Shown one piece after another: positions 30,049-50,318 of a stretch of 64,000 bases of DNA (position 1 is the first letter of the stretch; every line of letters starts with the position of its first letter). The stretch is taken from positions 124,001 to 188,000 of the forward strand of contig NZ_CP014223.1 of NCBI RefSeq assembly GCF_001561955.1, read 5' to 3'. The notes beneath the pieces were generated by a model. That model was not told where the DNA came from, made no database searches, and saw nothing but the letters and a program-made list of their open reading frames with translations. Source of the DNA: Anaerotignum propionicum DSM 1682. GTDB taxonomy: Bacteria; Bacillota; Clostridia; Lachnospirales; Anaerotignaceae. A program made the position numbers and the translations under genes.

Positions 30049-30385
30049 CGTGAGTAAGCTGGATGGTCGCGCCCCATAAAGGTGAGGAAAGTCCGGGCTT
30101 CATAGAGCAGGGTGCCGGTTAACGACCGGTGGAGGCGACTCTAAGGATAGTGCAACAGAAATAAACCGCCTGTATATGCAGGTAAGGATGGAAAGGTGGG
30201 GTAAGAGCCCACCGCTTCTCTGGTAACAGGGGAGGCTCTGTAAACCCCACCTGAAGCAAGACGAAATGAAACGTGAGGACTGCTCGTCCTGTTTCAATCA
30301 TGTCGCATGATGCTGTTGGCAACAACAGACCAAGATAGATGACTGTCCACGACAGAACCCGGCTTACATGGCTTGCTCACGATAT
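30049..30385 (+). ncRNA. rnpB: RNase P RNA
   Basis: It contains the conserved GAGGAAAGTCCGGGCTTC near the 5' end and AGATAGATGACTGTCCACGACAGAACCCGGCTTA near the 3' end (written here as landmarks at 30090-30107 and 30334-30365). The terminal P1 helix pairs GTGAGTAAGC (30050-30059) with GCTTGCTCAC (30371-30380). Length of about 335 nt is normal. The last ~30 bases lie in the direct repeat that bounds the island, so this 3' end was probably supplied by the inserted element. Confidence 0.95.
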
Positions 30386-30475
30386 TTTAAGTATTCACCC
30401 TCTGAAATCATTGATTTTAGAGGGTTTTTTACGTTTTTCGATAAAACATAAAAAGTACTTATTGTATCGTTTTTA
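30356..30475 (+). repeat. attL-type direct repeat: rnpB 3' end plus terminator
   Basis: Aligns over about 120 bases with 50203-50318 in the same orientation. Identical blocks are TGGCTTGCTCACGATA (30369-30384), CTGAAATCATTGATTTTAG, GTTTTTCGATAAAA and TTATTGTATCGTTTTT. Sequences diverge completely beyond the repeat. Confidence 0.88.
30398..30430 (+). terminator. Terminator of rnpB (island copy)
   Basis: CCCTCTGAAATCA pairs with TGATTTTAGAGGG, followed by T6. A variant of the same hairpin lies at 50246-50276. Confidence 0.92.
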
Positions 30476-30822
30476 CAAGATATAATGCCGGGTTCCTAAT
30501 TTGAAATACTCATTTATTTGCCGTATTAGATTTTCTTCATTATACTTAGGATTAGATGAAATGGCAATATAAAATTTATACGAAAATATTTGCGCACGGG
30601 TAAGAAAACATATTTTTAAATAGAACAGATCAATCTTTATAAGATAAGTCAGTTTTATAGGTGGGTAAATCATTTGATATATTAAGTATTTATAGTTTTA
30701 AAAGTATCTACATCATAAATACATTTTATTGAAAAATTTGGAAAAGGTATTTTATTTTGCGGTGAACTGTGATATAAGTTAGTATATATGATTGACAAAA
30801 TTCAACAATTATGGAGGAAATT
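30476..30822. other. Left island margin, no supported gene
   Basis: About 350 very AT-rich bases between the left repeat and the RADAR pair. A 66-codon leftward frame (30473-30673) has no ribosome site and I do not support it. The promoter of the RADAR genes should be here. Confidence 0.45.
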
Positions 30823-33690
30823 ATGGGTGGGCAGACTAAAATAGGGGCAAGAAGTTTAAGTGATAATGAAATTAAGTTAATTCTTCCAACATACGGTAAA
30901 ATAGAAGACCAGATAATAGAAATAAGAAACTCTTCAGCAGATGCTGATACTGATATGCAAAAGACCAATAATATAGGAATAATGGGGAAAAGAGGTGCAG
31001 GTAAAACATCTGTTTTAAAAACAATAGCTAAAAATTTAAAGAAAGAAAAAAATATTGAAGAAAATGGGGATATTGTGTTAGATCTGATTATTCCTGAAAA
31101 CATGTCAGAGGCAAGTACGCTTATGGCTACAATACTTGGGTTATTTAAAAGTAATGTTGACGAAATAGTCAGAAAAGAAGATAAAAGAACTAATGGATGT
31201 GGAGTGAATAAAGAAAATGATTTGAAAAGGGCCTATGATGAAGCGATAAAACAATATGCATATATACAAAAAGATTATAGAGATATTTTGATACAAGAGT
31301 TTAGCAGTGAGCCCGAGTATCTTAAAAAAACTACACAGGTGTTCAACTCAGATATTGAATTTATTAAAAAGCTTAATACCGTTATTGGTTTGCTGATTAA
31401 AAAACGCAAAAACGAAGTTAAGGGGAATCCTTTAATAGTAGTATTTATTGACGATATTGACTTGAGTACAAGACGGTGCAGTGATGTGGTAAAGACACTG
31501 CTATCTTATTTATCAAGTCCATACATATTAACGTTTATTTCAGGAGATTTGGATACCTTTGAAGAGGCATTAACATTGGAATTTTTAAGACAAGAGGGTT
31601 TTATTACTTCAGATGCAATGAGGCAAGAGTTTTTGAATGAAAAAAATGGGTGCTTGCTAGATAGAAAGAAAATTCAGGCGTATGAATATCTAAAGAAAGT
31701 GGTACCTCCTGTGTATCGTCACAATATCAAATTATGGTCGCTTGAACAAAGGGGAAAGTTTAATATATCTATAGATGGTAAAAATGAAGGTTCCTCTCTT
31801 CGTGAGTTATTAAAGAAAGCTCTAGATAGATGTGAGAATCATAATACAGATGGGAAGTCTCGCTTGTTTGATGTTGTTATGTACCCTGATATTGTTAATG
31901 AAGAGAAGGTTAATAAAACTTTAATGCCGTTATACTCATATCATCTTTTTGATAATACTTCAAGAGGACTAAATAATGTTTATAATGTATTATTACAAAT
32001 TGATGAAGATCAAGAACTTGATTTTTCTACAAGGAAAATTTTAATTGAAACAATAGTTTCCTCCAACCCTATTTATAATAAAAATAGAGTTGAATTGTTT
32101 GAAAATGTTATTTTATTTGGAAATACCCAAGCGGGTACGACTATAAGATGGGATAACCTAATACAATTAATATATTCTAACAAAGAGAACCAAATAATAA
32201 AATCACCGGTAGAAAGATTCTCACTATTTCTGTTAGTTTATTTCTCTGCAAATCTTTTAGAATTAGAATATAATAACAACTTTTCATTCGAATTTGCTAA
32301 GATTTCTACAATAAATACTTTGATAAAGAATCCTATTATCTCAGAAAATTTATTAATGATAGATGAACCCTTCGATTTAATGAAGGAGTATCTAGATTAT
32401 TGGGGATATATGCAAGAGGGTGAAACACACATTAATAGAGTTGATAATAAGGGGAAGCAGAAAAAGAGTACCGTTATAAATTACTCGTTTGACTTGATCA
32501 TAAATTTTTTAATCAAAAGCAACTTTGAATTCTCCTTAAATTTCTACCAGATATTGAGTCAGCGTTCTTTCGATTTTTTAGAGCTTGCAGATTATGATTA
32601 CAAAAATAAGAAGAATAGGTTAACCACAAATGTCACTTCAGCTATACGAAATAAAAATATACTTTCGGTCTACCAAGCGTTTTGTAGTTATAGTGATATT
32701 AATATCGATAAAAATAATATTGCTAAATATGATATTTCTAAATATATTGTTGGTTTATATGATGGATTTGGACTTGAATTTGCTTATCTACAAAACAATA
32801 TATACAGGGATAAAGCATTATTTACTATAGATGAGTTATTATCTGAACACATATATTCTTTGGGTGATGTAAAATATCGCTTGCTTCTTAATACTATAAA
32901 GCAAGAGATTATTAAGTTCTTTACTGGACAAGGTTTTAATAGAGAATTTAATAGTTCTGAATTTTTAAATTACTTAGACCCGTCTGAGGAAAAGAGAGCA
33001 TCTATAATTAAATCCATAGATTCTAAAAATTTATGGGATCATACAATGGCGGATAGTATTAAAGCTTACATAAATAAAAATATTAGCGTAAATATGATTA
33101 GAATTTGTAATTCTTTAGATAATGAAGAACCAAAATCATTTGTGGATATAACAAACTTTTTCAGTAATTCATGGCAGGATTTCAAGAAAATATATACTGG
33201 TGCAACATATACAAAAGCAATTAATACAAAGTTCAACATTAATCATATATTAAATAAAGTAAATAAGACTGTTGAGGGTAAATCAGAATTGGACTATTAC
33301 AATTTTACTTATTATAATGCCCCAAAGCATGGCATTGGTTTATTAGAAATTATTTCTAATTTAGCACATAATAATAGAGTTAGATATGGACAAGCAGAAG
33401 CTCAGCAAATGTTTAAAGATTTATTATACAACTCAACAATTATAATTGACGAAAAAAATAAAGAAAAAATCGAAGAAAAGAACAAACTGATTTTGAATAT
33501 CTATTATTTATGTATGTGGAAATATAATAAAAATATCAGTGTTAATGCAGAAATGCTCGTTAACTTTGTTAAAGAAATTGAACAATGCCAATTGGAAGTG
33601 AACGATGTTATGAAAAAAGATTTTCTTAACAACGTTACGGTTTTTGGAGACAAAATTAATATGGATGAGTTTATCGAACTATTTAAATAA
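30823..33690 (+). CDS. rdrA: RdrA-like P-loop ATPase of a RADAR anti-phage system
   Basis: 955 residues. Walker A is GIMGKRGAGKTS (about residues 52-63) and Walker B is LIVVFIDDIDLSTRRC (about 205-220), followed by a sensor-like ILTFISGD. The long C-terminal part is helical and AT-coded. RADAR RdrA proteins are ATPases of about 900 residues encoded directly before a divergent adenosine deaminase, the same order, size and spacing as here (17 bases to the next gene). RdrA and RdrB form a large complex that deaminates adenosine nucleotides during infection. I chose ATG 30823 because GGAGG is at 30813-30817; an ATG at 30811 overlaps that site. Confidence 0.85.
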   Translation: MGGQTKIGARSLSDNEIKLILPTYGKIEDQIIEIRNSSADADTDMQKTNNIGIMGKRGAGKTSVLKTIAKNLKKEKNIEENGDIVLDLIIPENMSEASTLMATILGLFKSNVDEIVRKEDKRTNGCGVNKENDLKRAYDEAIKQYAYIQKDYRDILIQEFSSEPEYLKKTTQVFNSDIEFIKKLNTVIGLLIKKRKNEVKGNPLIVVFIDDIDLSTRRCSDVVKTLLSYLSSPYILTFISGDLDTFEEALTLEFLRQEGFITSDAMRQEFLNEKNGCLLDRKKIQAYEYLKKVVPPVYRHNIKLWSLEQRGKFNISIDGKNEGSSLRELLKKALDRCENHNTDGKSRLFDVVMYPDIVNEEKVNKTLMPLYSYHLFDNTSRGLNNVYNVLLQIDEDQELDFSTRKILIETIVSSNPIYNKNRVELFENVILFGNTQAGTTIRWDNLIQLIYSNKENQIIKSPVERFSLFLLVYFSANLLELEYNNNFSFEFAKISTINTLIKNPIISENLLMIDEPFDLMKEYLDYWGYMQEGETHINRVDNKGKQKKSTVINYSFDLIINFLIKSNFEFSLNFYQILSQRSFDFLELADYDYKNKKNRLTTNVTSAIRNKNILSVYQAFCSYSDINIDKNNIAKYDISKYIVGLYDGFGLEFAYLQNNIYRDKALFTIDELLSEHIYSLGDVKYRLLLNTIKQEIIKFFTGQGFNREFNSSEFLNYLDPSEEKRASIIKSIDSKNLWDHTMADSIKAYINKNISVNMIRICNSLDNEEPKSFVDITNFFSNSWQDFKKIYTGATYTKAINTKFNINHILNKVNKTVEGKSELDYYNFTYYNAPKHGIGLLEIISNLAHNNRVRYGQAEAQQMFKDLLYNSTIIIDEKNKEKIEEKNKLILNIYYLCMWKYNKNISVNAEMLVNFVKEIEQCQLEVNDVMKKDFLNNVTVFGDKINMDEFIELFK

Positions 33691-33707
33691 GCTTTTAAGG
33701 AGAATTT

Positions 33708-36377
33708 ATGATAAACAATGCTATTAACAGATTTTTAGGTATTCTATGTTATCCATTGATTTCATTGAAATTCCAAGAAAGTAACATGTTGGATAAATAT
33801 TTTAATGAAATAGAAAATCGAAAAAAGATTAAAAGAACAATTCAAGATGAGTTGATTTCATATTTACAGTTGCGTTATCCAATATACTCATATGATGAAG
33901 TATTCCTTTACTTAGAAAAGTGTTATCTTTATAAAATTTATGAAAATATTCAATTCCAAGGAAGTTTTGGATGCTGTATGAGTAAAGTTTCTGATTTAGC
34001 TAAAGCGCTTATTTCACAAAGAGACGGCAAACTTGTGTTTAAATACTGGGAAAATGAAAATGATTCGGATTTTCTGGGGGGATTTTCAGGTAACAACAAA
34101 ATTCTTTTGTTTCATAGCTTAAATCGACATATTTCAATGGATTTGGTTGCAATAAAGTATCTAATAGACAATGGCGTAAAAGATGAAAGCCATCTACATA
34201 ATTTCTATGGAAGAGTAGCTGTTTCCGATATGCAGTTGGACACAGTGTTGCAAAAAGGAATTGCTGAGAATCATTTACATAGTGGGGCATCTCGCTCATT
34301 TTTAAGTGTATGGGAAGGTTTAATGAGTCCTTTTAATAAAAAGTCAATTGGAGAGTTTGAAAAATTGGCGAGTTTATTAAATGATAAAAAGTATGTTTTT
34401 TATGTATTGTGTTGTGGAGTTTTAAGAGTCATCATGGCTAACATAATAGCTCATAAAATAAAGAGTATTGAGGATCTAAATCCAGTTTTTTTGGAATTTT
34501 GCAAGTGCAATTTAGAAAAAATATATCAATTCCAAAAAGAAGATATATATGGGTTCTTTATTGACATATGGGATAGAATTTATTACGAGGGATTATTGGA
34601 TGAAGATGATAGCAGTACAAATATTATTTATAGAATTTTTAATGTTAATGAAAACATCAGCACTTCTGGAGAAAATGTATTCCTTTTTAATGTATTGTCC
34701 GGCACTGACAACCCATCTTGCGGTATTGAAGAAGGTGCTCTATCCTATTTAAAGCTTGCGTTTTTAAAGTATATTTGCATAAAAAACACTATATTTCAGA
34801 AGTTGGTTCAAAGGAAATCCATAAAGGGTTTGGACTACTTCCAGCTTCAATTTTATTCTAAAAATTCAAAAGCTGGTTTAATAAGGAATAATAAATTCTG
34901 GGAAACGGCAATGAGAGAACAATTTCAAAATAATAATCTTTCTAAGGTTGAGTTCAGACGGAGTATCCCAGATAGGGAAAGAGACTTTAGGAAAGATATT
35001 GTTGAATTTTTAAAAAGCTATCGGAAAATACTTAGGGAAGACTACTGCCTTATGGAAAAGGAATTCTTTATAACTAATTCCAATCAACCAGAGGTAAGAT
35101 ATAAATATATACCTATAAAAAAATTTCCCCAAGTAGGCCTTGTATATCATCTTTTGAAACGGGAAGATGATACATTTCCAGAAAAATGCTATTACTTAGG
35201 TGAAGGCGATTCAGAGAAAAATTATTTAACATTTGGTAAACGTAAAGAAGAATATCAAAATCTAATAAATATATTAAAAGATGCAAGGAATTCTCATAGT
35301 GAGTTAAGCAGATATATAGTTGGTTTAGACGCAGCGAGTTTAGAAAACTCTACACCTGTGTGGGTATTTACAAGCATTTATGAAAATGCTAGAGACAGTA
35401 GTAATGAGCCTTTGTGTATAGGAGGTGGTATGAACAATAATTTTCAAAGCTTGGGATTTACATTTCATGCCGGAGAAGATTTTAGACATATCCTCTCAGG
35501 ATTGAGGAGAATAGACGAGGCAGTGAGGCATTTGAAATTTCATGCCGGTGACCGTATAGGACATGCAATAGCACTTGGAATTGAGTGTGAAAATTGGGTT
35601 AGAGAGAATAAATATGTTGTAATGCCAAGAATTGAGGCCTTGGAAAATTATATTTGGGCATATGATATTTTAAGTACAGTTTATAGTGATTTTAATACCT
35701 CAATTATTGCATATCTCGAAAACAAGATATATACTCTTTCGAAACAAATATATGGGAATACCGAAGGATTAACGACATCTGTGCTGGTAGACGGGTATAA
35801 AAAAATGTTCTCAAAAAATGATCATTTTGTATGTATTGATTCAAAGTACAATAAATCTTGTGAGCACATAATGGCAGAGAAGCCGATTATATGGAATAGT
35901 GAAAAGTTGTTTATAGCAAGACACTGCAAGAAATTCGTCATAGAGATGAATAAGCCAATTAATTTTGAAGTGACAGAGCAAGATGTGGCTATAGCAAAGC
36001 ACTTGCAAAACGTGATTAGAAAAAATATCAGTAAGATTGGAATTGTTGTTGAAATTAATCCAACTTCAAATATAACCCTTTCTAATATTGATAATTTGAC
36101 AGAGAATCATATTTATAATATAAACCGGTTTTCTTATGATGCTTCAAATATAATTGCATGTGTTAATGCTGATGACCCATCTATATTTAATACCGATGTA
36201 TCCAATGAATTGGCATACGTTTATTATGGAATGATTGAAAAAGACGTGAGTAAAGAAGATGCGTTAAAGTGGATTGAAAAACTAAGAAAGAATGGGATTG
36301 ATTCATCATTTATAAGACGTACCGAGTCTGATGAGAGTATACTTTTGAAACTTGATGAATTAATTGAATCAATATAA
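33708..36377 (+). CDS. rdrB: RdrB-like adenosine deaminase of a RADAR anti-phage system
   Basis: 889 residues. The metal-dependent deaminase core is spread along the chain: HLH at 189-191, FHAGED at 586-591, HAGDRIGHA at 612-620 and NADDP at about 820-824, all matching the zinc ligands and catalytic Glu/His/Asp of adenosine deaminases. Ordinary deaminases have 330-500 residues, and the large insert between HLH and HAGE is the RdrB hallmark. The enzyme would convert adenosine nucleotides (ATP or RNA adenosines) to inosine forms. AAGGAGAA precedes the ATG. No RdrC (Csx27) or SLATT partner is adjacent. Confidence 0.88.
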   Translation: MINNAINRFLGILCYPLISLKFQESNMLDKYFNEIENRKKIKRTIQDELISYLQLRYPIYSYDEVFLYLEKCYLYKIYENIQFQGSFGCCMSKVSDLAKALISQRDGKLVFKYWENENDSDFLGGFSGNNKILLFHSLNRHISMDLVAIKYLIDNGVKDESHLHNFYGRVAVSDMQLDTVLQKGIAENHLHSGASRSFLSVWEGLMSPFNKKSIGEFEKLASLLNDKKYVFYVLCCGVLRVIMANIIAHKIKSIEDLNPVFLEFCKCNLEKIYQFQKEDIYGFFIDIWDRIYYEGLLDEDDSSTNIIYRIFNVNENISTSGENVFLFNVLSGTDNPSCGIEEGALSYLKLAFLKYICIKNTIFQKLVQRKSIKGLDYFQLQFYSKNSKAGLIRNNKFWETAMREQFQNNNLSKVEFRRSIPDRERDFRKDIVEFLKSYRKILREDYCLMEKEFFITNSNQPEVRYKYIPIKKFPQVGLVYHLLKREDDTFPEKCYYLGEGDSEKNYLTFGKRKEEYQNLINILKDARNSHSELSRYIVGLDAASLENSTPVWVFTSIYENARDSSNEPLCIGGGMNNNFQSLGFTFHAGEDFRHILSGLRRIDEAVRHLKFHAGDRIGHAIALGIECENWVRENKYVVMPRIEALENYIWAYDILSTVYSDFNTSIIAYLENKIYTLSKQIYGNTEGLTTSVLVDGYKKMFSKNDHFVCIDSKYNKSCEHIMAEKPIIWNSEKLFIARHCKKFVIEMNKPINFEVTEQDVAIAKHLQNVIRKNISKIGIVVEINPTSNITLSNIDNLTENHIYNINRFSYDASNIIACVNADDPSIFNTDVSNELAYVYYGMIEKDVSKEDALKWIEKLRKNGIDSSFIRRTESDESILLKLDELIESI

Positions 36378-36398
36378 TAGATAAAGAAATTATATTCT

Positions 36399-36444
36399 AA
36401 AAAAGCGTACAAAACACATTCAGTGTTAAATACGCTTTTTTTAT
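36399..36444. terminator. Bidirectional terminator after rdrB
   Basis: AAAAAAGCGTA (36399-36409) pairs with TACGCTTTTTT (36431-36441), with an inner AACAC/GTGTT stem. Confidence 0.88.
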
Positions 36445-36496
36445 AACAGTGTTCTGTTACGATAAATTATTTTGAAGGAGATGATAAAAGAAAAAA

Positions 36497-36535
36497 CCTA
36501 AGATTATATGGTTAACATATAATCATTAGGCTTTT
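36497..36535. terminator. Terminator between the RADAR side and the integrase gene
   Basis: CCTAAGATTATATG (36497-36510) pairs with CATATAATCATTAGG, flanked by A6 and T5, so it can serve both strands. Confidence 0.85.
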
Positions 36536-36540
36536 TGAGA

Positions 36541-37476
36541 CTAAGCAACGAATTTAAGACAATCTCTTAAATCATCGATTTGAAAGTGTATGTAGGGTGC
36601 CAGCTCATTTATGCTGGAGTGTCCTGTGAATTTAATGATTTTTTCTGGTTCGTTTTTTCTGGATAGCATGTCCATTACAAATGTATGTCGAAAAATATGA
36701 GAGGAAACTTTGTTTTGATCAATATTTATATATTTAAGCACACGCTTTATCATATTATTGAATGCGCTTTTTGACAGGGGGTCTCCCTTATTACTTAAAA
36801 ATATTTTATCTGCTGTATGTGGGCAGGAAGTATGATAACTGGAAAGAGCGTTGCAAAGCTCTGGGGTAATTGGTATTGAATAAGCCTTACTCCCTTTTAC
36901 ATTTCTAACCACCATTGTTTTTTCAATAAAATCAAAGTCCTCAAAGCGTGCTTCTCTTACGCTGGAACCTCGTATTCCTGTTGTCAGCATTAACAATACT
37001 ATGCAATAATCTCTTAATTTGTCAATGTGGTTGCTTTCTATAATTTTTTCAAGAAGCAAAGTACATTCTTGTTGGGATAAATACTTAATTTTGTTTTGTA
37101 TTTCACCGTTTATGTTGGAATAACCATTTTTTTTGGTTCTATTTATAACTAACTTTTGGGCTAAATTCTCTATTTTGAAGTGGGACTCTAAAAATTTATA
37201 GAGAACAATTACACTGTCTAGTTTTCTATCTTTTGTTTTTGCACAGATTTGTTGTTTGGATACCTTATTTACTAGATAAATTTTATAACTTTCTAAAATT
37301 CTTAAATCAATGTCCTCAATATAAACTTTGCTAGGATAATTGTTTTTTAAAAACTCTATAAACTGGGATATATCTGTAATATAGGCTTTCATCGTCGCTT
37401 GTGAATTTTCTCTGGCATAAAGGTAAATTTCAAATTGCTTCAACATTTTAATAAGTGTTAATTTTTCTTTATTCAT
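36541..37476 (-). CDS. Tyrosine recombinase (phage-integrase family), internal
   Basis: 311 residues. An N-terminal SAM-like domain (ANSQATMKAYITDISQFIEFL-type segment) precedes the catalytic domain with Arg in TTGIRGSSVREARF, HIFRHTFVMDML, GHSS and Tyr in APYIHF. AGGAGG-like GGAGGTT sits before the ATG. It follows the Rep gene by 69 bases in the same orientation, so the two are probably co-transcribed. It is the second recombinase gene of the island and may belong to a module that moved on its own. Confidence 0.88.
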   Translation of the reverse strand: MNKEKLTLIKMLKQFEIYLYARENSQATMKAYITDISQFIEFLKNNYPSKVYIEDIDLRILESYKIYLVNKVSKQQICAKTKDRKLDSVIVLYKFLESHFKIENLAQKLVINRTKKNGYSNINGEIQNKIKYLSQQECTLLLEKIIESNHIDKLRDYCIVLLMLTTGIRGSSVREARFEDFDFIEKTMVVRNVKGSKAYSIPITPELCNALSSYHTSCPHTADKIFLSNKGDPLSKSAFNNMIKRVLKYINIDQNKVSSHIFRHTFVMDMLSRKNEPEKIIKFTGHSSINELAPYIHFQIDDLRDCLKFVA

Positions 37477-37545
37477 ATATAAAACCTCCGAATTTTTCTT
37501 TTATTATGAGTGATGGCATTCATTTGGATCACTGTATAGAAAGAC

Positions 37546-38511
37546 TTATACACCGGAACAAGTATATTTTAACAGAGCAGGAAGTGTATCAATATAAATT
37601 CCTTGCTCGGTTATAAATTCATTTCTTAACTGGATTGGATTTATATCCAGATTGTTTAATGCTTTTATGTATCTTGCAAAAGTATTTACGGCATAAGATT
37701 CCTTTGCATCATTAATACTGGTTTGTTCAATACATTCTAAGAATTCTTTTAATTTTTTCTTTTTGTCTGCTCTATAAGTGCTGAGGTCTATTATTTTAGC
37801 GGAATTCTCTTTTGTTCTATAGCTCCCATTAAAAATAACAGGCAGAACAGAATGATTAAAATAAGCTTTATTCATTTCTTCGGAGAGGTAATTATCTAAA
37901 ACATCAGCCAGACCAGTATTGCACTTGTGATTGGAAATATAACGCCTTTTTAATTGAACTTCAATTCTGAGCACATCTTGTTCATAGGTTTTGGGGGATC
38001 TATGCTTATCATGGAGTTCTTTATTTTTATCATAGATTATTATTTTTCTACTTTTGTTTGCAAATTCAACTGAAGTTTTATAAAATGTGCTTTTGGTAAA
38101 GTAACCCCATTTCTGGTACGATTTTTTAATTAGATCTATATATGCTTGTCTAATCGTGTTATCAGGAATTATAAGATCTCTCTTGAAATCTATTCTCTGC
38201 AAAATTAACCTCGGATTATCTGCTAGAGAGAAGTTATTAGCGAAGTCCGATAATTTATTATATATAACCTCGAGATCTGCGTTTGTTGCTGTACCTTTAT
38301 TCAGCAACTCCTGTAGGTTAATGTGTATTATAATGTACCAGTTTTCATGGTCTACTGTCTCATAGGGATATTGCCGTCTGAAATAAATAGTGGCTTTAAG
38401 GCCGGTTTCTTTAAATAAAATATCAGTATGTTTAAATTCCTCCTCTCTTTTTTCAATATAAATTATGTCCTGTGGTGCCAGGGTGTACTTTAACTGCAAT
38501 GTGTGTACCAT
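37546..38511 (-). CDS. Rolling-circle replication initiator, phage/plasmid gene II/X-like
   Basis: 321 residues. Features typical of the II/X (Phage_CRI) Rep group are a conserved beta strand around His63 (WYIIIHINLQELL), LQRIDFKRDLI (103-113), IIIYDKNKEL (157-165) and LRIEVQLKRR (181-190). I assign it from these motifs, not from an alignment. Its upstream region, including the first ~50 codons, is tandemly duplicated. With the adjacent tyrosine recombinase it suggests an integrative element that replicates after excision. Confidence 0.65.
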   Translation of the reverse strand: MVHTLQLKYTLAPQDIIYIEKREEEFKHTDILFKETGLKATIYFRRQYPYETVDHENWYIIIHINLQELLNKGTATNADLEVIYNKLSDFANNFSLADNPRLILQRIDFKRDLIIPDNTIRQAYIDLIKKSYQKWGYFTKSTFYKTSVEFANKSRKIIIYDKNKELHDKHRSPKTYEQDVLRIEVQLKRRYISNHKCNTGLADVLDNYLSEEMNKAYFNHSVLPVIFNGSYRTKENSAKIIDLSTYRADKKKKLKEFLECIEQTSINDAKESYAVNTFARYIKALNNLDINPIQLRNEFITEQGIYIDTLPALLKYTCSGV

Positions 38512-38730
38512 GATTTATCTTCCTTTCTTTAAGTAATTGATACCAACTTACTAATATTTATTTATTTTTTAGAAGACGCATATTTTGGTGATTATATGCG
38601 TTTAAAAGACCTGCTACTACGGGTCGGGTATAGGATTGCATAAATTTCTGGAAAAGTAAAGAGCTCAAGGAGGGGGTAGAACACCTTGTATGGAAAAGGG
38701 TGTTCGAGCAACGGATAAATATGCTTTAGT
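38354..38730. repeat. Tandem duplication, copy 1 (377 bp): Rep 5' end and leader
   Basis: This unit and 38731-39107 are direct, abutting copies with only a handful of base differences. The unit holds the first ~53 codons of Rep, its ribosome site and about 220 bases upstream. It has two hairpins: ACGCATAT...ATATGCGT (near 38576-38601) and GAACACC...GGGTGTTC (near 38679-38706). These look like elements of a double-strand origin. Confidence 0.93.
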
Positions 38731-38888
38731 ACTGTCTCATAGGGATATTGCCGTCTGAAATAAATAGTGGCTTTAAGGCCGGTTTCTTTAAATAAAATAT
38801 CAGTATGTTTAAATTCCCCCATTCTTTTTTCAATATAAATTATGTCCTGTGGTGCTAGGTTGTACTTTAACTGCAATGTGTGTACCAT
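38592..38888 (-). pseudogene. Truncated duplicate of the Rep gene 5' end
   Basis: It starts as MVHTLQLKYNLAPQDIIYIEKR, nearly identical to Rep, for about 53 codons. It then runs across the duplication junction into non-Rep sequence for about 45 codons. It has the same upstream ribosome site as Rep and could be translated to a 98-residue fusion, but is best read as a by-product of the tandem duplication. Confidence 0.8.
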
Positions 38889-39147: not shown

Positions 39148-39152
39148 GAGCT

Positions 39153-39476
39153 TCAAAGACGATCTTGAAGTTTTTTCAATTCTCTTATTTGTTGCAACAA
39201 GTAATCTTGTAAGGGGGGGATTAATGCGTCATAAATTTCTAATAATTCAATTGTACTAGAAGCGAATTTAGGCAGAAACATTTTACCAGTTCCGGTTGTG
39301 AGCCATTCTTCGTTCACATTATAAACTTTGCAAATCAATTTAATATAGGCTTCTTTTATTTGCCTTTCTCCCGTCTCAAAACTTGCGTAAGTCGTCTGAT
39401 TCAGTCCTAGCGCTTGGCAAAAAACTCTTTGGCTGAGGCCTAATTCTTTTCTTAATTCTTTCAGTCTCTCTTTCAT
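39153..39476 (-). CDS. XRE-family repressor of the island
   Basis: 107 residues. An N-terminal Cro/C1 HTH (LKELRKELGLSQRVFCQALGLNQTTYASFETGERQI) is followed by a short helical tail likely used for dimerisation. It is divergent from a 49-residue gene, and three TTAACTCAA-like sites lie in the shared region, so autoregulation and a lysogeny-type switch are likely. Confidence 0.85.
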   Translation of the reverse strand: MKERLKELRKELGLSQRVFCQALGLNQTTYASFETGERQIKEAYIKLICKVYNVNEEWLTTGTGKMFLPKFASSTIELLEIYDALIPPLQDYLLQQIRELKKLQDRL

Positions 39477-42004: not shown

Positions 42005-42034
42005 AAGAATAATTTAAATCAATTTACAAAACAT

Positions 42035-42085: not shown

Positions 42086-42114
42086 TAAGTGATAGATTTA
42101 TTTGGAGGGGACTC

Positions 42115-43023: not shown

Positions 43024-43102
43024 CTTTTAGATTTAATGCTATAATAACAGTGTAGTATTGGAGGCTTTTGATTTTGAGTTAGTTATAGAAAGGGGAGTAG
43101 AA

Positions 43103-44740
43103 ATGAGATTCAATGTGAGAAAAAATTTACACATGATTCTTTTAAGTATTTTGGTATCATCGTTATTTTCTGTATGTACTTTTGGAGCAATTCCAAGCCC
43201 ATACTGGAAAGTGCAACAGCCATTTATTACTGCAAGAGATTCAGGAAATAACGCCGATATTATAAAGTATGGGAAGGAAATTGTAGCTATTTTTAAGGAC
43301 AAGCCTATGGATAAGAATAAGGCAGAGATATTATACACTACATACGAAGCCATGTATAAGTCTTATGAAAATACTGCGGATTATGGAAATGCTATTGAAA
43401 TTTTAAAGGCGCAAATTCCCTATGGGGAATACTTGGGCTATGCAGATGGGGTTAAGCTTGCCAAGGAGAGAATTAATAAAATCAACCCCATGACACAGGT
43501 ATACGCTGTAACCCAAAACACAGCATCTATTCCGTTTTATGGGATGAAGAATGAACCGAAGTCCGGTACATATTTCGGCAGAGTTTATTCCAGTGGTGGT
43601 GTTGCAACTATGGAAAATGAAACGGCGGTTTCTTTCTATTTTGAATGTTTACAAGATAACTTAGAAGACTTTGATTATATGCTTCGACCTTATGCAGACG
43701 GCACTAGGCTGATACATATTGCCATGAATATGCCAGGGGAAAACGATTCCTTAAAGCTTATAATGCAACCTACTTCAGATGCGTACTTAAAAGAAACCAT
43801 GGAGTATTTAAAGTCTTTAGATGCACCGGTATTGCTTAGAATTGGGGGGGAGATGAACGTATGGCAAAACCTTGGGGACTCAAGTCTATATAAACAGGCA
43901 TACATTAAGATAGCTAATATTGCAAGACAGACAGCGCCCAATGTTGCATTGGTTTTCTCTCCCAATGATGTGTCAAATTGGAATGTGGATATTGCTGACT
44001 ATTACCCAGGGGATAACTATGTAGATTGGGTAGGTGTTTCTCTATATACAAATAAATATAGAAATCCCCAAAATCCCTTAGTTGGTAAGGATTTTGAGGA
44101 GATGTATTATGGAAATGGGGCATACGCGAATCCCCTGACAAGGCTTAAAAATATTGTTGACAGATATGGGAGCAAGAAACCTATTATTATCACGGAGTGT
44201 GGTATTGGCTACGGAATCAACGGGAAATCCCTTGACTTAAATTCTTTTGCAAAAGAGCGAATCCAAATGCTGTATACTTATGCCAATATGCTGTATCCCC
44301 AAGTAAAAGGCATTATTTATTTTGACGTGGATTTAGGAAGTAGCAATAAATATTTATATTCATTAAGCAATAACAAGCAAATGATGAACCAGTATCAGGC
44401 ATCCGTTGAAAATAACGAGAGTTTTATTCTACAAATGGGGGTCTCGCCAAAGGCCTACGTTAAGGCTGGAAGCTATCAAGACAATCTACCTGTTATTGAG
44501 CTGGCAACATATTGTATCTTACCTAGAGATGTTCCTGTGACAGTGGAATATTCCCTGGATGGTAAAAAGGTTACTTCCGAAGGAAAAATACCTTATACCT
44601 GCAATTTAGATGCAAGTGCAGTGTCCACGGGAATCCATGAATTGAAGGTCGTGATAAAAGCGACCAACGGCTATAATAAGATAAAAGCCTATACGTTAAC
44701 AAAGCATGAAAATAATTTGGTAAATATTAAAGAAAAATAG
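43103..44740 (+). CDS. Secreted GH26-like glycoside hydrolase
   Basis: 545 residues. A signal peptide (ILLSILVSSLFSVCTFG) is followed by a ~120-residue helical region and then a TIM-barrel. RIGGEMN (acid/base Glu250) and IITECGIG (nucleophile Glu365) match the GH26/clan A pattern, with WVGVSLYTN between. A C-terminal Ig-like domain (VPVTVEYSLDGKKV) ends the protein. It would cleave beta-mannan or a related surface polysaccharide. ATG 43103 follows AAAGGGGAG; an upstream TTG/GTG extension is less likely. Confidence 0.75.
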   Translation: MRFNVRKNLHMILLSILVSSLFSVCTFGAIPSPYWKVQQPFITARDSGNNADIIKYGKEIVAIFKDKPMDKNKAEILYTTYEAMYKSYENTADYGNAIEILKAQIPYGEYLGYADGVKLAKERINKINPMTQVYAVTQNTASIPFYGMKNEPKSGTYFGRVYSSGGVATMENETAVSFYFECLQDNLEDFDYMLRPYADGTRLIHIAMNMPGENDSLKLIMQPTSDAYLKETMEYLKSLDAPVLLRIGGEMNVWQNLGDSSLYKQAYIKIANIARQTAPNVALVFSPNDVSNWNVDIADYYPGDNYVDWVGVSLYTNKYRNPQNPLVGKDFEEMYYGNGAYANPLTRLKNIVDRYGSKKPIIITECGIGYGINGKSLDLNSFAKERIQMLYTYANMLYPQVKGIIYFDVDLGSSNKYLYSLSNNKQMMNQYQASVENNESFILQMGVSPKAYVKAGSYQDNLPVIELATYCILPRDVPVTVEYSLDGKKVTSEGKIPYTCNLDASAVSTGIHELKVVIKATNGYNKIKAYTLTKHENNLVNIKEK

Positions 44741-45529
44741 GAGTTTTAGTTATATTTGGTTTTTTATTTGCATATTATAGTATGTAATAATAAACAACAA
44801 AAACAACAAAAACGTGGAGACTAAGGCAGTCACAAAAATGTTTTCTTAAATGGAAGGTTAAGCAGTTTTATTTTTTTTCCTGCGACGGAGCTGGAAATTT
44901 AAGTGTTTATTGCTACACATCCCCTTTATGTAATGTAAATCCTTTTAAAACAACCCCATCTAATGTGAATTAGATGGGGTTGTTTTTTTGAAGGTAAATA
45001 TAATAAAACGGTAATTATATTTACCCATAGCTGGTATTAATTTGGATAAACCAAAACAAGAAATGTGAGAAGTGTTATGAACATAACGAACCTTTAAAAC
45101 ACTAATGGAAGAAATGCGTTTTGTTTCTTTAGGTGTAGGCTAAGTAACTATTTTTATACCAAAGTCAAAGGTTTTAAAAACACTTTCCATTAGATATTGG
45201 ATATTAATAAACCATTCTATACCTTTTAAAATTTCAAGAACAAGTAATTTACCCAAATTAGTGGGCGGGCAAGTTATTGGTAACAATTGAAATTAAATAT
45301 AAATAAAGCTTTTTTATTGGATATTTATTTATTATTAGCAGTAATTGCAAAAAAATAGCGGAATATCAATTAAATACATAAAAAGCCTGATTTAAAGAAA
45401 AAAATAATATTATATGCTATTTTAAAACATGTTATTTGACGTTTTTGAAAAAAAAGTTCAAAAAAACTAAATAACATATTGACGAATGGCTGATGGTATA
45501 GTAATATATTCGAAAAGGAGATGAAATTT
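44741..45529. other. 790-bp AT-rich spacer with one terminator
   Basis: No coding frame is supported. The only clear element is the hairpin at 44951-44989. The rest is AT-rich and may be remnant sequence between two cargo modules. Confidence 0.5.
44951..44989 (+). terminator. Strong terminator after the glycosidase gene
   Basis: CAACCCCATCTA (44951-44962) pairs with TAGATGGGGTTG (44971-44982), followed by T7. Confidence 0.92.
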
Positions 45530-46824
45530 ATGGAAAAGACTATTCTTAAATCAATATATGTATCTAATTTCGGTCCTTTTGCAGATATGGTTGAGTTTAC
45601 GCTTGAGGCTGAGAAAGGAAAAAAAGAATATATAGATAATTTAATTTTTAAAGAAGATAAAATTATGTTTTTAATAAAGTGTCTTATATTTATGGTGCAA
45701 ATGGTGCGGGAAAATCGTATTTTTGTAAAATTATAAGACAAATTCAGTCTATTATTTTGTTATCTCCCATTTTGGCATCAGGAAATACTCAACTAATTGA
45801 TTCGCTTCCGTTAAAAGAACTTTCTTCCGAGATTCCTACGTTTAGATTTTCAAAAGCTTATGAGGATTCTCCCACTTTATTTGGAATTAGTTTAATGCAC
45901 AAAAGTGTCTCTTATACTTATGAATTTTCTATTAAAAATGGGATTATTATATCAGAGCGATTGCAAAAAAAATTCAGAAGAACGGAGACAATATTAGAAA
46001 GAGTAAGCCCCTCTTATTTGGATATATCTTTAAAGTCAGAACTGTCTTCTTTTTTGCCCAATATTAGCGTTGTTAAAGAAGATGTATTATGTCTATCTAT
46101 GGCTGCATTTTTGAATAATAGCTTAGCAAATGAACTAGTATCAGCTATAAGGGAAATAAAGGTTTTAAATATGGCTACCATAAAAGCTGGATTTAATATT
46201 TCCGAAGAAGCATTTTCTAGAGACCGTATTGTTAAATATTTAAAGGTCCTTCAAAAAGCGGATCCAACTATGGACGACTTGGAAGTATCATTTAAAGACA
46301 AGAAGGTTGAACGACAAAAATTTAGTCAGGATGATTTTGAAAATAGGGAAGTTATTAGAGAAACAGCAAAGCTTTCGATAGAATCTTCACATAAGATTTT
46401 TTTAAATGGGGAAGTTGTCGACTATGTCAAAATGCCTTTTCTTCAAACAGAATCAAGTGGTACGATAAAATTATTTATTATCCTCCCACATTTATTCGAA
46501 ATTTTAGAAACTGGGGGAACCTTAGTTTTAGATGAGATAGAGAATGGATTGCACCCTATTTTAGTAAAAGAACTAATATCTTTATTTAATAACCAGAAAA
46601 CTAATCCTAATAATTCACAATTAATTTGTACATCTCATGATTTAACACTTATTGAAGACGGTGTTAGGCGAGACCAAGTATGGATTATATGTAAAAATGA
46701 TATGGGAGTAAGCTCAATTAAAAGGGTAAGCAAATTACTTTCGATGAGAGGAAAGGTAAATCTTAAACAAAAATATATTGAAGGAGCATTTGGTAAAATA
46801 CCCCAAAATTTTTTTAAGCAGTAA
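45530..46824 (+). pseudogene. OLD/AbiL-like AAA ATPase gene with a frameshift just before Walker A
   Basis: The first 45 codons from ATG 45530 (AAAAGGAG nine bases upstream) encode the ABC-like start LKSIYVSNFGPFADMVEF. The frame then shifts at an A-tract near 45656-45662. In the next frame it continues YVFNKVSYIYGANGAGKS (Walker A), ESSGTIKLFIILPHL (signature), GGTLVLDEIENGLHP (Walker B) and TSHDL (H-loop). Adding one A to the tract joins both parts into one ~430-residue protein of the COG1106 type, often found in abortive-infection systems. Could be a real null mutation, a slippage site or a sequencing error. Confidence 0.82.
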
Positions 46825-47051
46825 ACAGAAGAATAAAAGAAAACACCGAACGGCAATTCGGTGTGGTGAATTGACAAAAGCACTAGCGTATAGTACTATG
46901 TCCTCAAATCCTTAACATTTTACTATAAATTTATGTTATTTGCAATATGAAATTTGTCAATAGAAAGGTAAAAAAACGCTTTTATTCTCCTTTTATTTTT
47001 ATATAGCTAATTAACCGTAGTCTAATAATCTAACTTAAAAGGAGTTTTTAA

Positions 47052-47954
47052 ATGAAAAATTTTGTTTCACAAGAAATATTAAAATGTAGTAACAGAGCGC
47101 ATAGATATTTTGATTTTGTTGATGTAGATTTGGCCAGAGATAATAAACTTTTTATTGATCCTTGTCTAATTGCATGTTCAAAATCAAATTGGGCTAAAGA
47201 TGTAGCTAAAACTATTGATTCTTTCTTTAAGGAATTTTATATGGCCTATAGAAATGGTGATAGTGAAATGAAGTTAAGAATTTTAGGTCACGCCGGTGAA
47301 GAAAATGCAACTAGATTAGGTTATGGTAGGGGAGACAATGGACGAGGCAATACAGCTGAAGGGTTACTGAAAGATTTCAAACCATTGGAACACCTGGTTA
47401 TAAGTATAAGGACTATTGAAGAACCACAGGATTTACCGGTATTTATACCAGGTTTTGCTGAAGATGGATTGTCTGATTTATTAACAAATGTTATACATAA
47501 AGAGTTAAATGACTTTACATTGGATCAATTAAGTAAGTACGGAATTTCCCCTAATTCAAAAAGTTCATTTTTTACTTGGGATATCAATTTAAATAATTGG
47601 AGGGAAATAACAACCGATTGCTTCAAATTCAAAGGAGATAAAGTTTTATTGGTTCCTAAAGATATTGTTAGAAAAAACTATCTTTTTTCAACTTCCCAAT
47701 TTTTTAAAAGAATAATACTCGAGGAACATAAACATGAGTTTAAGGATTCGCAAGGAAAAAGTATTTCTAAAAGAGACATTGAAAAAATGTTAAAGACAGA
47801 TGATGAGCACTGGATGTATGAGAAGGTGATTGAGCACTCAAAAAGAAGTCCGCTGTCCCTTGCCGAATATCATAAGAGTTTACCAGTATACTATTTTGAA
47901 AGTGGAAATGAAATGAGTGATACTGAACTTGATGAGTTTATATACAAAAGATAG
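47052..47954 (+). CDS. Unassigned 300-residue island protein
   Basis: I do not recognise a family. It is soluble, with VDVDLARDNKLFIDPCLI near the N-terminus, then GRGDNGRGNTAEGL and PVFIPGFAEDGLSDLLTNVI. The DVDL...LFIDP pattern with the following acidic residues could be part of an enzymatic site. Ribosome site AAAAGGAG sits before the ATG. It comes 230 bases after the broken ATPase gene and has its own terminator near 47970-48012, so it could be an independent single-gene cargo or the ATPase's former partner. Confidence 0.75.
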   Translation: MKNFVSQEILKCSNRAHRYFDFVDVDLARDNKLFIDPCLIACSKSNWAKDVAKTIDSFFKEFYMAYRNGDSEMKLRILGHAGEENATRLGYGRGDNGRGNTAEGLLKDFKPLEHLVISIRTIEEPQDLPVFIPGFAEDGLSDLLTNVIHKELNDFTLDQLSKYGISPNSKSSFFTWDINLNNWREITTDCFKFKGDKVLLVPKDIVRKNYLFSTSQFFKRIILEEHKHEFKDSQGKSISKRDIEKMLKTDDEHWMYEKVIEHSKRSPLSLAEYHKSLPVYYFESGNEMSDTELDEFIYKR

Positions 47955-47971
47955 ATAAGTTAATAAAAAAA

Positions 47972-48012
47972 TGGAGAACTGCTCAGATTAATATCTGAGT
48001 GGTTTTTTAAAA
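47972..48012 (+). terminator. Terminator of the unassigned gene
   Basis: AACTGCTCAGAT pairs with ATCTGAGTGGTT, followed by a T run. Confidence 0.8.
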
Positions 48013-48115
48013 GAAATACGGAAGATCATAAATATTTACGATATATTGTTGATTTCCAAGTATTTAAATTCCTTGTTCTACTATAATACTTTGGATTTTT
48101 GTACACATAGAAAGG

Positions 48116-48658
48116 ATGAATGAATTGAACTGTCTAAGCGACTTGTTTACTATACAAGCTATGGATTATATTAATAACTTACTTGCAGTTTGGGGATTAA
48201 TTTCTATAATTATTTGCGTAATTGGCTTTTTTAATAATACTTTTGAAGAATCTAGTCACATCATTATTAAAGACAACCCTAGCGAAGAAGACATTAACAA
48301 ACTTACATACTATACCGAGTATAATCAAGAGGCTCCTGAAGAAGATAGAACTTTGCTAATGTCTGTAAGTCAATCTGCGAAAAATATTAGAATATATAAC
48401 TTTAATATAGATAAGGGGAAGTGGAACAGAGCATCTTCGCTTATTTGTAAGAACTTATCACCAAACCAAGGCATTATATTTAACATTAATAGACCGGAAG
48501 GACTGCCTATGTACAAGATTAAATGGTCTATAGATTATGGAGCTACATCAGAATACATTTTTTCATACAATGGTTTCTCGGGAGTTCATAGCAAAGAATA
48601 TTGTACTTATTATTATAGTGGTTATTCAAAGATAAGAAAGATATTAAATATAAAATAA
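48116..48658 (+). CDS. Uncharacterised single-pass membrane protein
   Basis: 180 residues with one clear membrane helix (LLAVWGLISIIICVIGFF, about 22-39). A ~140-residue, mostly beta domain follows and contains IRIYNFNIDKGKWNRASSL. No family recognised. AAAGG precedes the ATG. It is the last rightward gene of the island. Confidence 0.6.
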   Translation: MNELNCLSDLFTIQAMDYINNLLAVWGLISIIICVIGFFNNTFEESSHIIIKDNPSEEDINKLTYYTEYNQEAPEEDRTLLMSVSQSAKNIRIYNFNIDKGKWNRASSLICKNLSPNQGIIFNINRPEGLPMYKIKWSIDYGATSEYIFSYNGFSGVHSKEYCTYYYSGYSKIRKILNIK

Positions 48659-48835
48659 CACCATCTTTAGGGTATGATATACATAGGTTTCGTATAGAAA
48701 ATCTACTCTTCCAATGACATTAAAAGATTAGTTCTATGCTATTAAAAATATGCCGATTTTTTATTTGGCAAGAATCTATCAAGGACAATTTAACTTAATT
48801 GGGTTATTATATACGTACAATAAATATTGAAATCA

Positions 48836-48901
48836 AGAGTGCTAGTCCTTGGAATGGGTTATCTAAGATAATTCCACCAGAGATGATGCACTCTTTTATT
48901 A
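48836..48901. terminator. Nested hairpin with T tract
   Basis: The outer stem AAGAGTGC...GCACTCTT encloses TGGAA...TTCCA and TTATC...GATAA, followed by TTATTATATT. It is either a terminator or a small structured RNA. The rest of 48659-48946 shows no gene. Confidence 0.5.
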
Positions 48902-48946
48902 TATTCAATAAATATTAAATTGGCTGAGTAATTCAGTATGACTCAT

Positions 48947-49081
48947 TTATTGAGGACGTCCGAAAGTAGAGTACTCATCTCTAATTATTTTAACTGCTTC
49001 ATTAACGGTTATTTGATTACTTATTTTCAAGTTCTCTACTTCAAGAGATCCTTTGACGCTTTCTAAAATCCTGTTTGACAT
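48947..49081 (-). CDS. 44-residue protein downstream of the integrase gene
   Basis: The frame encodes MSNRILESVKGSLEVEN..., then ISNQITVNEAVKIIRDEYSTF, and ends GRPQ. AGGGGTGA lies seven bases before the ATG, a good ribosome site. It is 60 bases downstream of the integrase gene on the same strand. It could be an excision-control or antitoxin-type peptide; nothing firmer can be said. Confidence 0.5.
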   Translation of the reverse strand: MSNRILESVKGSLEVENLKISNQITVNEAVKIIRDEYSTFGRPQ

Positions 49082-49141
49082 ATTAATCACCCCTATGGAA
49101 ATATTATACACAATTTTTAACAAAAATTATAGATCGAGTCT

Positions 49142-50044
49142 CTATTTTAAATCGGGGAATTTTTCAACATTTGATTTTAATGTGTTTATTGAAGTATGCG
49201 TGTAAATTTTCGTTGAATTTAAGTCACTATGCCCAAGCAAGGCTTGTATTGTTAATACATCAACTCCACTCTGATGTAGATGGGTAGCGAAGCTGTGTCT
49301 GAGCTTATGTAAGGTATATCCTTTATTCCCCAGACCGGATTTTTTTATATACCGTTGGAATAACGTTTGAACGGCAGAAACAGACATCCTGCCCCCTGCA
49401 TCTGATATTATAAGAGGCGCATTTGGTAGGGGGTTAGTATCTAGGTAATGTGCAACCAAATCCACCCCTAAATCGTTTATGATAGGCACAATTCTTTGTT
49501 TCTTACCTTTCCCGTTTATCAAGATGGTGTTTTCCTGAAAATTCACATCGCACCAATTAAGCTGGAGCACCTCTGACCTTCTCGCACCGGTATAAACAAA
49601 AAGTTCTAATAATAACTTATCTCTCATTCTGTGCTCAGGAAAACGAGCAAATTTCCCCGGAGCTTTAAGAAGAATTTTCAAGTCGGCTTTCGAAAAATAA
49701 ATTGGCAATTTTTCTACCCGTTTGGGGGCGTGAATTGGAGCCATAGGGTTGGCTTGAATATACTCCATTTCATATAGATAATTAAAAAAAGAACTCAATG
49801 AATGTATTTTTCTTCTGACGGAGTTAGATTCATAACTTTTGGTGATTTTTAAATAGGTAATAAATAATCTAACATCCTTCGTTTGGCACTCTAAGATATT
49901 TTCACATCGTCCACTAATTTTTAAATACTCTATAAAGTGCTTAAAATCCGTTTGATAGCTTTGCAAAGTAAGTTTAGAGGCATTTTTTTCACTCAGCATA
50001 TAGTCTAAAAACTCTTCATGCAACTGGTTAGTTTGTATGTCCAT
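49142..50044 (-). CDS. XerC/D-like tyrosine recombinase, probable island integrase
   Basis: 300 residues, the standard XerC/D length. N-terminal domain LHEEFLDYMLSEKNASKLTL; catalytic Arg in YTGARRSEVLQLNW; LHKLRHSFATHLHQSG; LLGHSDLNSTKIYTH with the catalytic Tyr. GGAGGG precedes the ATG. It lies only 160 bases from the right rnpB repeat and reads into the island, the usual place for the integrase that made the insertion. Confidence 0.93.
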   Translation of the reverse strand: MDIQTNQLHEEFLDYMLSEKNASKLTLQSYQTDFKHFIEYLKISGRCENILECQTKDVRLFITYLKITKSYESNSVRRKIHSLSSFFNYLYEMEYIQANPMAPIHAPKRVEKLPIYFSKADLKILLKAPGKFARFPEHRMRDKLLLELFVYTGARRSEVLQLNWCDVNFQENTILINGKGKKQRIVPIINDLGVDLVAHYLDTNPLPNAPLIISDAGGRMSVSAVQTLFQRYIKKSGLGNKGYTLHKLRHSFATHLHQSGVDVLTIQALLGHSDLNSTKIYTHTSINTLKSNVEKFPDLK

Positions 50045-50091
50045 TGACAGCCCTCCTAAAAATGCGTATAATAGTTTCAGGGTTATGTACT

Positions 50092-50146
50092 GTTTTACTT
50101 ATAGTGCTGTTTTTTCAAAACAGCAGTGTCTATAACCAGTAAAAAC
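50092..50146. other. Large imperfect palindrome between integrase and attR
   Basis: TTTTACTTATAG...CTATAACCAGTAAAA arms flank a central GCTGTTTTTTCAAAACAGC. The site is directly upstream of the integrase start. It could be a recombinase accessory site or the operator of the integrase promoter. Confidence 0.5.
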
Positions 50147-50202
50147 CTCATTAAAACCCTGTAAATACAGCATTCTAAGAGCATTTCAATAAGGGTGGTC
50201 AT

Positions 50203-50318
50203 AACCCGGCTTATATGGCTTGCTCACGATACTTTAACAAGTTATCCCCTGAAATCATTGATTTTAGGGGGTTTTTATGTTTTTCGATAAAAAATAAAAA
50301 TTATTGTATCGTTTTTTA
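50203..50318 (+). repeat. attR-type direct repeat: second copy of rnpB 3' end plus terminator
   Basis: AACCCGGCTTATATGGCTTGCTCACGATA corresponds to the end of RNase P RNA (described in two parts: AACCCGGCTTATATGG and CTTGCTCACGATA). It is followed by terminator CCCCTGAAATCA/TGATTTTAGGGGG (about 50245-50272) and the tail TTATTGTATCGTTTTTT. No rnpB 5' part is present here, so it is a remnant of the original target. Confidence 0.88.

Follow-up and report, generated by a model that had tools for sequence, protein, structure and literature searches.

The 3' end of the RNase P RNA gene as a probable attachment site of tyrosine-recombinase elements in Anaerotignum propionicum

Tails of rnpB and recombinases in the window

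The DNA considered here is a stretch of 64,000 nucleotides from the chromosome of Anaerotignum propionicum DSM 1682 (contig NZ_CP014223.1, positions 124,001 to 188,000), hereafter called the window and numbered from its first letter. It contains a complete class-A RNase P RNA gene, rnpB, at 30051-30383 on the forward strand (RF00010, 286.9 bits, E 9.7e-93, model positions 1-367), which is followed by an island of mobile DNA encoding two tyrosine recombinases. A preliminary description, made from the letters of the sequence, had proposed rnpB as the integration site of this island, and had reported an imperfect copy of the rnpB tail and its terminator about 19.8 kb downstream, next to a tyrosine integrase gene. 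Both the tail copy and the adjoining integrase were recovered in the present analysis, together with a second tyrosine recombinase gene and a third, degenerate tail that the description did not mention. It is judged quite probable that tyrosine-recombinase elements use the 3' end of rnpB as their attachment site on the chromosome, and that two related elements lie in tandem at this locus. The features on which this reading depends are listed below; relatives are cited by genome number.

28350-30017, forward: uridine kinase-like gene (udk; Pfam PRK), the chromosomal left flank, located 5' of rnpB in most relative loci compared
30051-30383, forward: rnpB, class-A RNase P RNA, the 3' end of which is the probable integration target (RF00010)
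30353-30474, forward: tail 1, the rnpB 3' end (3' strand of helix P1) with an element-type terminator, the presumed left attachment site (attL); similarity to tail 2, hairpin fold, and tail type as in G002 and G004
30475-30591, no strand: presumed left end of the element, common to G002, where the blastn match ends at 30591 and jumps to 36482
36541-37476, reverse: int2, tyrosine recombinase (PF00589, 1.2e-27), of which a homologue's relic lies near rnpB in G002
49142-50044, reverse: int1, XerC/D-like tyrosine integrase (PF00589, 1.2e-37), adjoining tail 2
50200-50316, forward: tail 2, a second rnpB 3' end with terminator, an internal attachment site and presumed left end of an older element; similarity to tail 1, hairpin fold and tail type
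51024-51980, forward: copper amine oxidase N-domain protein (PF07833, 1.4e-9), in the putative remnant element between tail 2 and the relic
52263-52289, forward: third rnpB tail, degenerate and of native type, the presumed outermost right attachment site (attR); 25/28 to the empty-site tail of G003, E 0.002 in the 64-kb window
52856-53580, forward: similarity to the native chromosome resumes (blastn to G003), with a carbonic anhydrase gene (Pro_CA) at 53023-53580

Tail 1 and tail 2 are 86.1% identical over 122 alignment columns (E 1e-37). The second tail, 117 bp in length, is spaced 19.85 kb from the first and lies 155 bp from int1. When the whole genome was searched with 30051-30500 at E ≤ 0.001, the sole matches were rnpB itself and the tail 2 copy (E 1e-33). 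Within the repeat, a 26-nt core, CCGGCTTA[C/T]ATGGCTTGCTCACGATA, differs by a single base between the two tails, which are the only sites in the window within eight mismatches of it. A terminator-like hairpin of similar sequence and shape is predicted directly after the core in both. The 3' strand of P1 carried by both tails, GGCTTGCTCA, pairs with the 5' end of rnpB at 10 of 10 positions, and a full RNA is predicted for the regenerated gene, with a full-length RF00010 match and P1 pairing. Because this predicted structure is intact, a chimeric RNase P RNA ending in the element's tail would be expected to function. The P1 pairing and the two hairpins support the earlier suggestion that the element supplies its own P1 strand and terminator.

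The 3' end of the target gene is thus directly repeated at a far boundary, as in islands that use RNA genes, and tyrosine recombinases within the island are provided by int1 and int2. int1 contains the sequence pieces TGARRSE, HKLRH and GH...Y, which we take to be parts of the tyrosine recombinase motif. ARAGORN detected no transfer RNA (tRNA) and no transfer-messenger RNA (tmRNA) gene in the window, so the locus lacks a target of the Islander class.

Related loci and the proposed order of insertion

In G003, an Anaerotignum relative, the locus is compact, with the order udk, rnpB, carbonic anhydrase, SRAP, hydrolase and amidase. The gap between rnpB and the carbonic anhydrase gene is 0.36 kb in G003 versus 22.6 kb in the window. 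The carbonic anhydrase gene likewise follows rnpB in two family members, G013 and G027. The site is therefore uninterrupted in these three genomes, all of them other species rather than another strain. Extra DNA with differing open reading frames (ORFs) separates the two genes in G002 (about 5.9 kb), G004 (about 2.9 kb) and G007 (about 3 kb). The G007 locus (L035) also holds an internal rnpB fragment at 17402-17519 (positions 171-287 of the gene, 79%), which lacks the 3' end; the intact gene lies about 2.1 kb upstream of this fragment.

After rnpB, the G002 locus matches the window by blastn as far as 30591, where the match breaks off to continue at 36482-36766, which is the end of int2. A 94-amino-acid ORF about 275 bp 3' of rnpB in G002 is a relic of an int2 homologue (69% over 75 amino acids); because this relic adjoins rnpB, int2 is favoured as the recombinase of the original insertion. 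Since the match jumps from 30591 to 36482, the DNA between 30.6 and 36.4 kb of the window, which carries a RADAR-like gene pair, would have been added later between the left end of the element and int2, or lost in G002. Anaerotignum sp. CSMAG_115 (L215) shares the sequence of the G002 locus (L120), with 100% identity over 3933 bp.

The tails of the genus fall into two types. Type A, with a shared ATCATTGATTTTAG hairpin after the core, occurs in the genome of the window (G000), G002 and G004. Type B, with CATACAAAT after the core, occurs in G003, G005 and G007, where the sequence beyond the core is CATACAAATGAA or CATACAAATAAA, unlike tail 2. A genus tree was calculated, with FastTree alone, from five flanking proteins for most genomes (one for G005, three for G006, four each for G013 and G027) and with G006, G013 and G027 as outgroups. 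In this tree G004 branches first, followed by G003 and then by G000 and a group of G002 with G005 and G007. Because types A and B are interleaved on it, at odds with the species tree, the tail appears to be exchanged and not simply inherited.

The preliminary description had taken tail 2, given there as 50203-50318, for the original chromosomal tail that ends the island. This assignment is not supported. Tail 2 resembles the rnpB-adjacent tail of G002, beside the int2-homologue relic, and the tails of G003 and G007 match the degenerate copy at 52263-52289 instead. That copy is the single further window match of the G003 tail that extends past the core, and it is followed by a weak hairpin and a T run. 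Over the interval 50345-52855, the G003 tail reaches a local alignment score of 39 (shuffle maximum 27) and the G007 tail one of 37 (shuffle maximum 29), scores that no shuffle attains (0/200 for each tail), and three control stretches of the window (11-29 kb) score at most 25. G003, which is free of the island, has one match and none like tail 2, so it does not keep both copies, which the description had named as an outcome that would count against insertion. Since the native tail matches the relic at 52263 while tail 2 resembles the tail beside rnpB in G002, the island most likely runs to about 52.27 kb as two elements. The protein encoded at 51024-51980, between tail 2 and the relic, has no match in 29 short relative loci or in eight longer ones.

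A history of the following kind would account for this arrangement. The attachment site carried by the element (attP) would contain about the last 30 nt of rnpB and a terminator; these 30 nt presumably correspond to the 3' strands of P4, P2 and P1. Recombination would split the host gene near AACCCGGCTTA, after which rnpB would be rebuilt with the element's own tail and the old tail displaced to the far end. At least two rounds would be required to give the order rnpB, element X (30.38-50.2 kb), tail 2, a remnant of element Y (50.2-52.27 kb), the native tail relic and carbonic anhydrase. From a native rnpB with a type-B tail, element Y would have come first, bringing a type-A tail and displacing the native one to 52263; another element of this kind, X, would later have entered at rnpB and pushed the tail of Y to 50200. 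Insertion of Y and then X is the simplest history.

Several observations weigh against this reading. Among 392 genomes of the order, no int1 match at E ≤ 1e-30 besides int1 itself exceeds 37% identity, and in 196 genomes int2 matched itself alone at the same threshold. Because neither recombinase has close matches, target specificity is not readable from relatives. Neither a strain-level empty site nor an excised circle was seen, the empty sites coming from other species. Tails 1 and 2 differ by 14%, for which reason element X may be old and immobile. With the G005 tail, the best-scoring place within the interval is likewise the relic, but the score is 29, 3/200 shuffles reach it and the match is not significant; also, 40 shuffles of a 29-kb control stretch reached 36, near the 37-39 of the relic. 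Past the relic, 52290-52856 has no alignment to G003, similarity returning at 52856. A native-type relic was looked for in G002 and G004 and none was found.

Other rnpB tails beside mobile DNA

The preliminary description had called for a search for other islands starting at rnpB, and such cases were found in UBA8514, a 41.7-kb viral contig and G549. With the compact G003 locus, they support rnpB as an integration site. In G010, which is Lachnospiraceae bacterium UBA8514 (identical integrase), a tyrosine integrase gene starts 119 bp after rnpB, with its frame open from 20 bp, and is followed by an Amidase_2 gene and a gene for a protein of a PHROG of unknown function. A second contig of this genome (C17) carries 89 nt of the rnpB end, identical, and then a related tail, the rest of rnpB being absent; we infer that the two contigs are the ends of one prophage. 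The G012 genome encodes, 131 bp after rnpB, the N-terminal 44 residues of an integrase resembling that of G010 (50%, E about 1e-6). A hairpin of the form CCTCC...GGAGG-TTTTT, with ATG/GTG-CAAAAAA immediately after it, recurs after rnpB (about 440-510 in L038; downstream in L035, L036 and L082). In G010 this hairpin motif runs into the probable ribosome site and start of the integrase gene, so the terminator may also affect integrase translation there.

The 41.7-kb viral contig, IMGVR_UViG_3300035388_000034, has at one end a 3' portion of rnpB, truncated where the contig stops and closely followed by a gene for a 399-amino-acid integrase. About 2 kb from its opposite end is an rnpB tail without rnpB; the repeat spans 46 columns at 95.7%, and the terminators past it differ. 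Inside two further phage contigs (L154 and L172), about 30-40 nt of rnpB tail and a hairpin terminator stand directly beside an integrase gene, with phage-type or lysis-type genes on the far side, a layout presumed to be that of an attP. The L172 integrase ORF is short (197 amino acids) and its match is weak (PF00589, 6e-4). In L174, an rnpB tail has baseplate genes on one side, and an integrase is indicated by 72% identity to L172 over 465 bp. In L136, which also holds terminase and portal genes, rnpB is complete, and 30 bp separate its 3' end from the end of an integrase gene; read from composition alone, this is a probable actinobacterial prophage. In G549, rnpB is followed by 2.56 kb with an M23 peptidase gene and then by the rnpB end again (122 columns at 98.4%), no integrase being found in the duplicated-tail region. 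G200 has an orphan rnpB tail with terminator (87.8% over 90 columns), and no integrase was found within the 5.6-kb contig that carries it. The distance from the start of the repeat to the gene end varies: it is about 30 nt in the window, about 35 nt for L154 and L173, 89 nt for G010 and about 120 nt for G549. Different positions in rnpB are used by different elements, and tRNA targets are likewise used at differing positions.

Within the order, the exact 17-mer ACAGAACCCGGCTTAYA was present in 95 of 392 genomes and occurred twice in three (G010, G200 and G070); in a phylum sample, which shares six genomes with the order sample, ACAGAACYCGGCTTAYA was present in 209 of 398 and occurred twice in two (G549 and G677). 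The second tail of G070 is an exact 55-bp contig overlap, an assembly effect, and the second copy in G677, which looks like an overlap of contig ends, was dropped as a probable effect of the same kind. Real exact duplicates thus number 3 of roughly 300 motif-bearing genomes, in surveys that miss diverged duplicates such as that of the window. In the family, rnpB was matched in 51 of 58 genomes. Downstream DNA of 50 genomes, up to 20 kb each, was surveyed; omission of two that end less than 0.6 kb from rnpB left 48 loci and 633,763 bases. Profile and tblastn searches of all these bases gave five integrase sequences, of which the window accounts for two. For three of the five, rnpB is no more than 1 kb away (binomial P 0.004, on small numbers).

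The integrases found beside rnpB tails are only 20-28% identical to each other over every aligned stretch of at least 100 amino acids, and because they are so distant, the use of rnpB probably arose more than once. The five that were scanned against PHROG all belong to phrog_1 (L172 lay outside the scan). Relatives of the G010 integrase (32-42% identical) had an ARAGORN tRNA gene in 9 of 17 loci scanned. Among the best 80 of 443 loci of these relatives in a named collection, a tRNA gene was located within 500 bp upstream in 44, rnpB in one (UBA8514 itself) and neither in 33, the remaining two starting too near a contig end. Rfam revealed no new RNA-gene target beside the integrase in 20 of those 33 loci. 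That relatives of this integrase often sit at tRNA genes suggests a shift from a tRNA to an rnpB target within the family. In viral contigs, single-protein queries, which reach close relatives only, gave no relatives of int1, one weak match to the UBA8514 integrase and, for the L173 integrase, that integrase itself alone.

RNase P RNA is an essential ribozyme of tRNA processing and normally has one gene. We consider it somewhat likely, with less confidence than attaches to the locus itself, that RNA genes offer a third class of attachment site besides tRNA and tmRNA genes, namely the 3' end of rnpB, at which no fewer than five integrase lineages, from Bacillota and a probable actinobacterium, arrived independently. 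Phages and islands would then repeatedly rewrite the terminal part of these hosts' only RNase P RNA together with its terminator, tying their own presence to an essential ribozyme.

Other sequences were set aside or noted in passing. The ORFs of MT835850, labelled a phage, look like those of a bacterial chromosome fragment starting in rnpB. Nine near-identical viral contigs with rnpB (L132, L133, L139-L141, L143 and L145-L147) were not counted as 3'-end insertions; their integrase, where detected (8/9), is about 1.1 kb upstream of rnpB, and a tRNA follows rnpB where the sequence extends that far. In L149 the motif falls inside an ORF, and L170 and L171, with rnpB-like sequence 5' of the motif, were not counted. 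Complete RNase P RNAs occur inside tRNA arrays of six viral contigs of 31-463 kb (L134, L135, L138, L144, L151 and L152). The tRNA array of L155 includes an rnpB-like tail but gives no RNase P match with Rfam, and L153 has a full rnpB near the contig end. A query with the Escherichia coli rnpB region matched dispersed repeats, at a median of 36 places per genome. In the record of Microcystis phage MaAM05 (MW495066, 115579-115668), a stretch without annotation weakly matches part of rnpB (E 0.03).

Alternative explanations, cargo and known systems

The island could also be read as a single element, with tail 1 as attL, tail 2 as the displaced original host tail (attR) and ordinary chromosome to the right of 50.32 kb. 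The integrase adjoins tail 2, and the simplest two-repeat anatomy fits. Type-A tails also adjoin rnpB in G002 and G004, so they could be ancestral to the genus, G004 branching next to the outgroups. However, the tails of G003, G005 and G007 differ, and those of G003 and G007 have their significant window match solely at 52263. Also, 50.3-52.86 kb, including the gene at 51024, has no counterpart at the G003 locus, and extra DNA follows the type-A tails of G002 and G004 as well. A single element is therefore thought unlikely, and two elements in tandem are preferred.

Exchange between rnpB tails by homologous recombination, through gene conversion or DNA uptake, with the recombinases using other sites, would explain why similarity reaches about 40-90 bp past the gene in the window, G010 and G200, which exceeds the needs of a minimal core. 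In phage contigs, an integrase gene directly adjoins just about 30-40 nt of rnpB with a terminator, and the repeat of the 41.7-kb viral contig is only 46 nt long, with differing terminators past it; given these, homologous recombination is regarded as very improbable. Segmental duplication or misassembly, with nearby recombinases present by coincidence, carries the least probability of all. Unrelated repeats do accumulate in mobile regions, and the tail duplications of G070 and G677 are or look like contig-end overlaps, but the window lies within a single 3.12-Mb contig, copies of the rnpB end flank phage DNA in unrelated genomes, and the clustering of family integrases within 1 kb of rnpB argues against coincidence.

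Besides its recombinases, the island carries the following genes, which lie within element X and include defence-like ones.

30811-33690, forward: RdrA-like ATPase, cargo, of a divergent RADAR-like pair (PADLOC RdrA 2.4e-9; NF041743 2.3e-15, far under cut-off)
33708-36377, forward: RdrB-like adenosine deaminase, cargo (PADLOC RdrB 1.5e-32; NF041744 1.3e-49, far under cut-off)
37546-38511, reverse: G2P-like replication protein (PF05144 1e-5; phrog_702 1e-6)
38592-38888, reverse: partial tandem duplicate of the replication gene (94% over 53 amino acids to 37546-38511)
39153-39476, reverse: helix-turn-helix regulator (HTH_3 5e-13)
45679-46824, forward: AAA ATPase, AbiLi/AriA-like, cargo (PADLOC AbiLi 2.6e-59; AAA_21)
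47052-47954, forward: candidate defence protein, PDC-M36A-like, cargo (PADLOC PDC-M36A 3e-13)

A GH26-like protein and Cu-amine-oxidase-N proteins are encoded on the island as well. RADAR is an anti-phage system of RdrA and RdrB, in which an ATPase gene is followed by an adenosine deaminase gene. The pair at 30811-36377 has the same gene order; unlike RADAR, both genes score far under the curated cut-offs (56/600 bits for RdrA and 169.5/800 bits for RdrB). Because of these scores, the two-gene operon is described as an apparent divergent relative of RADAR, and not as a called RADAR system; it is possibly a divergent subtype. Elsewhere in the window, a T-box leader (1486-1707) and a TPP riboswitch (12380-12486) are both ordinary.

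Should mobile elements use rnpB's 3' end as a standing attachment site, a whole class of them escapes island finders that call such sites intergenic; typing schemes based on rnpB must take element-derived tails into account; and integration vectors gain a conserved place to land. How the targeting of RNA genes arose also becomes testable, as an integrase family common at tRNA genes includes an rnpB member. No report of rnpB as an attachment site was found in the open-licence PMC literature searched, and absence from print is not claimed.

Tandem accretion is possible in tRNA and tmRNA islands. Like such islands of the Islander class (PMC4383910), the window island combines a tyrosine integrase, a target at the 3' end of a structured-RNA gene, a restored gene and a displaced fragment at the far end. 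In the 2025 TIGER/Islander resource (PMC12424338), island ends are mapped precisely at any target, and sites are divided among tRNA and tmRNA genes (33.8%), protein-coding genes (43.4%) and intergenic DNA (22.8%); the main text contains no occurrence of rnpB. The integrase family of UBA8514 is often found at tRNA-Leu, -Gln, -Lys, -Ser and other tRNA genes, whereas the UBA8514 member is at rnpB; as elsewhere in the family, the integrase gene begins roughly 100-470 bp past the RNA gene and in most cases shares its strand. Unlike islands of the Islander class, the window island targets rnpB, and the part that it carries comprises both a helix strand and an intrinsic terminator.

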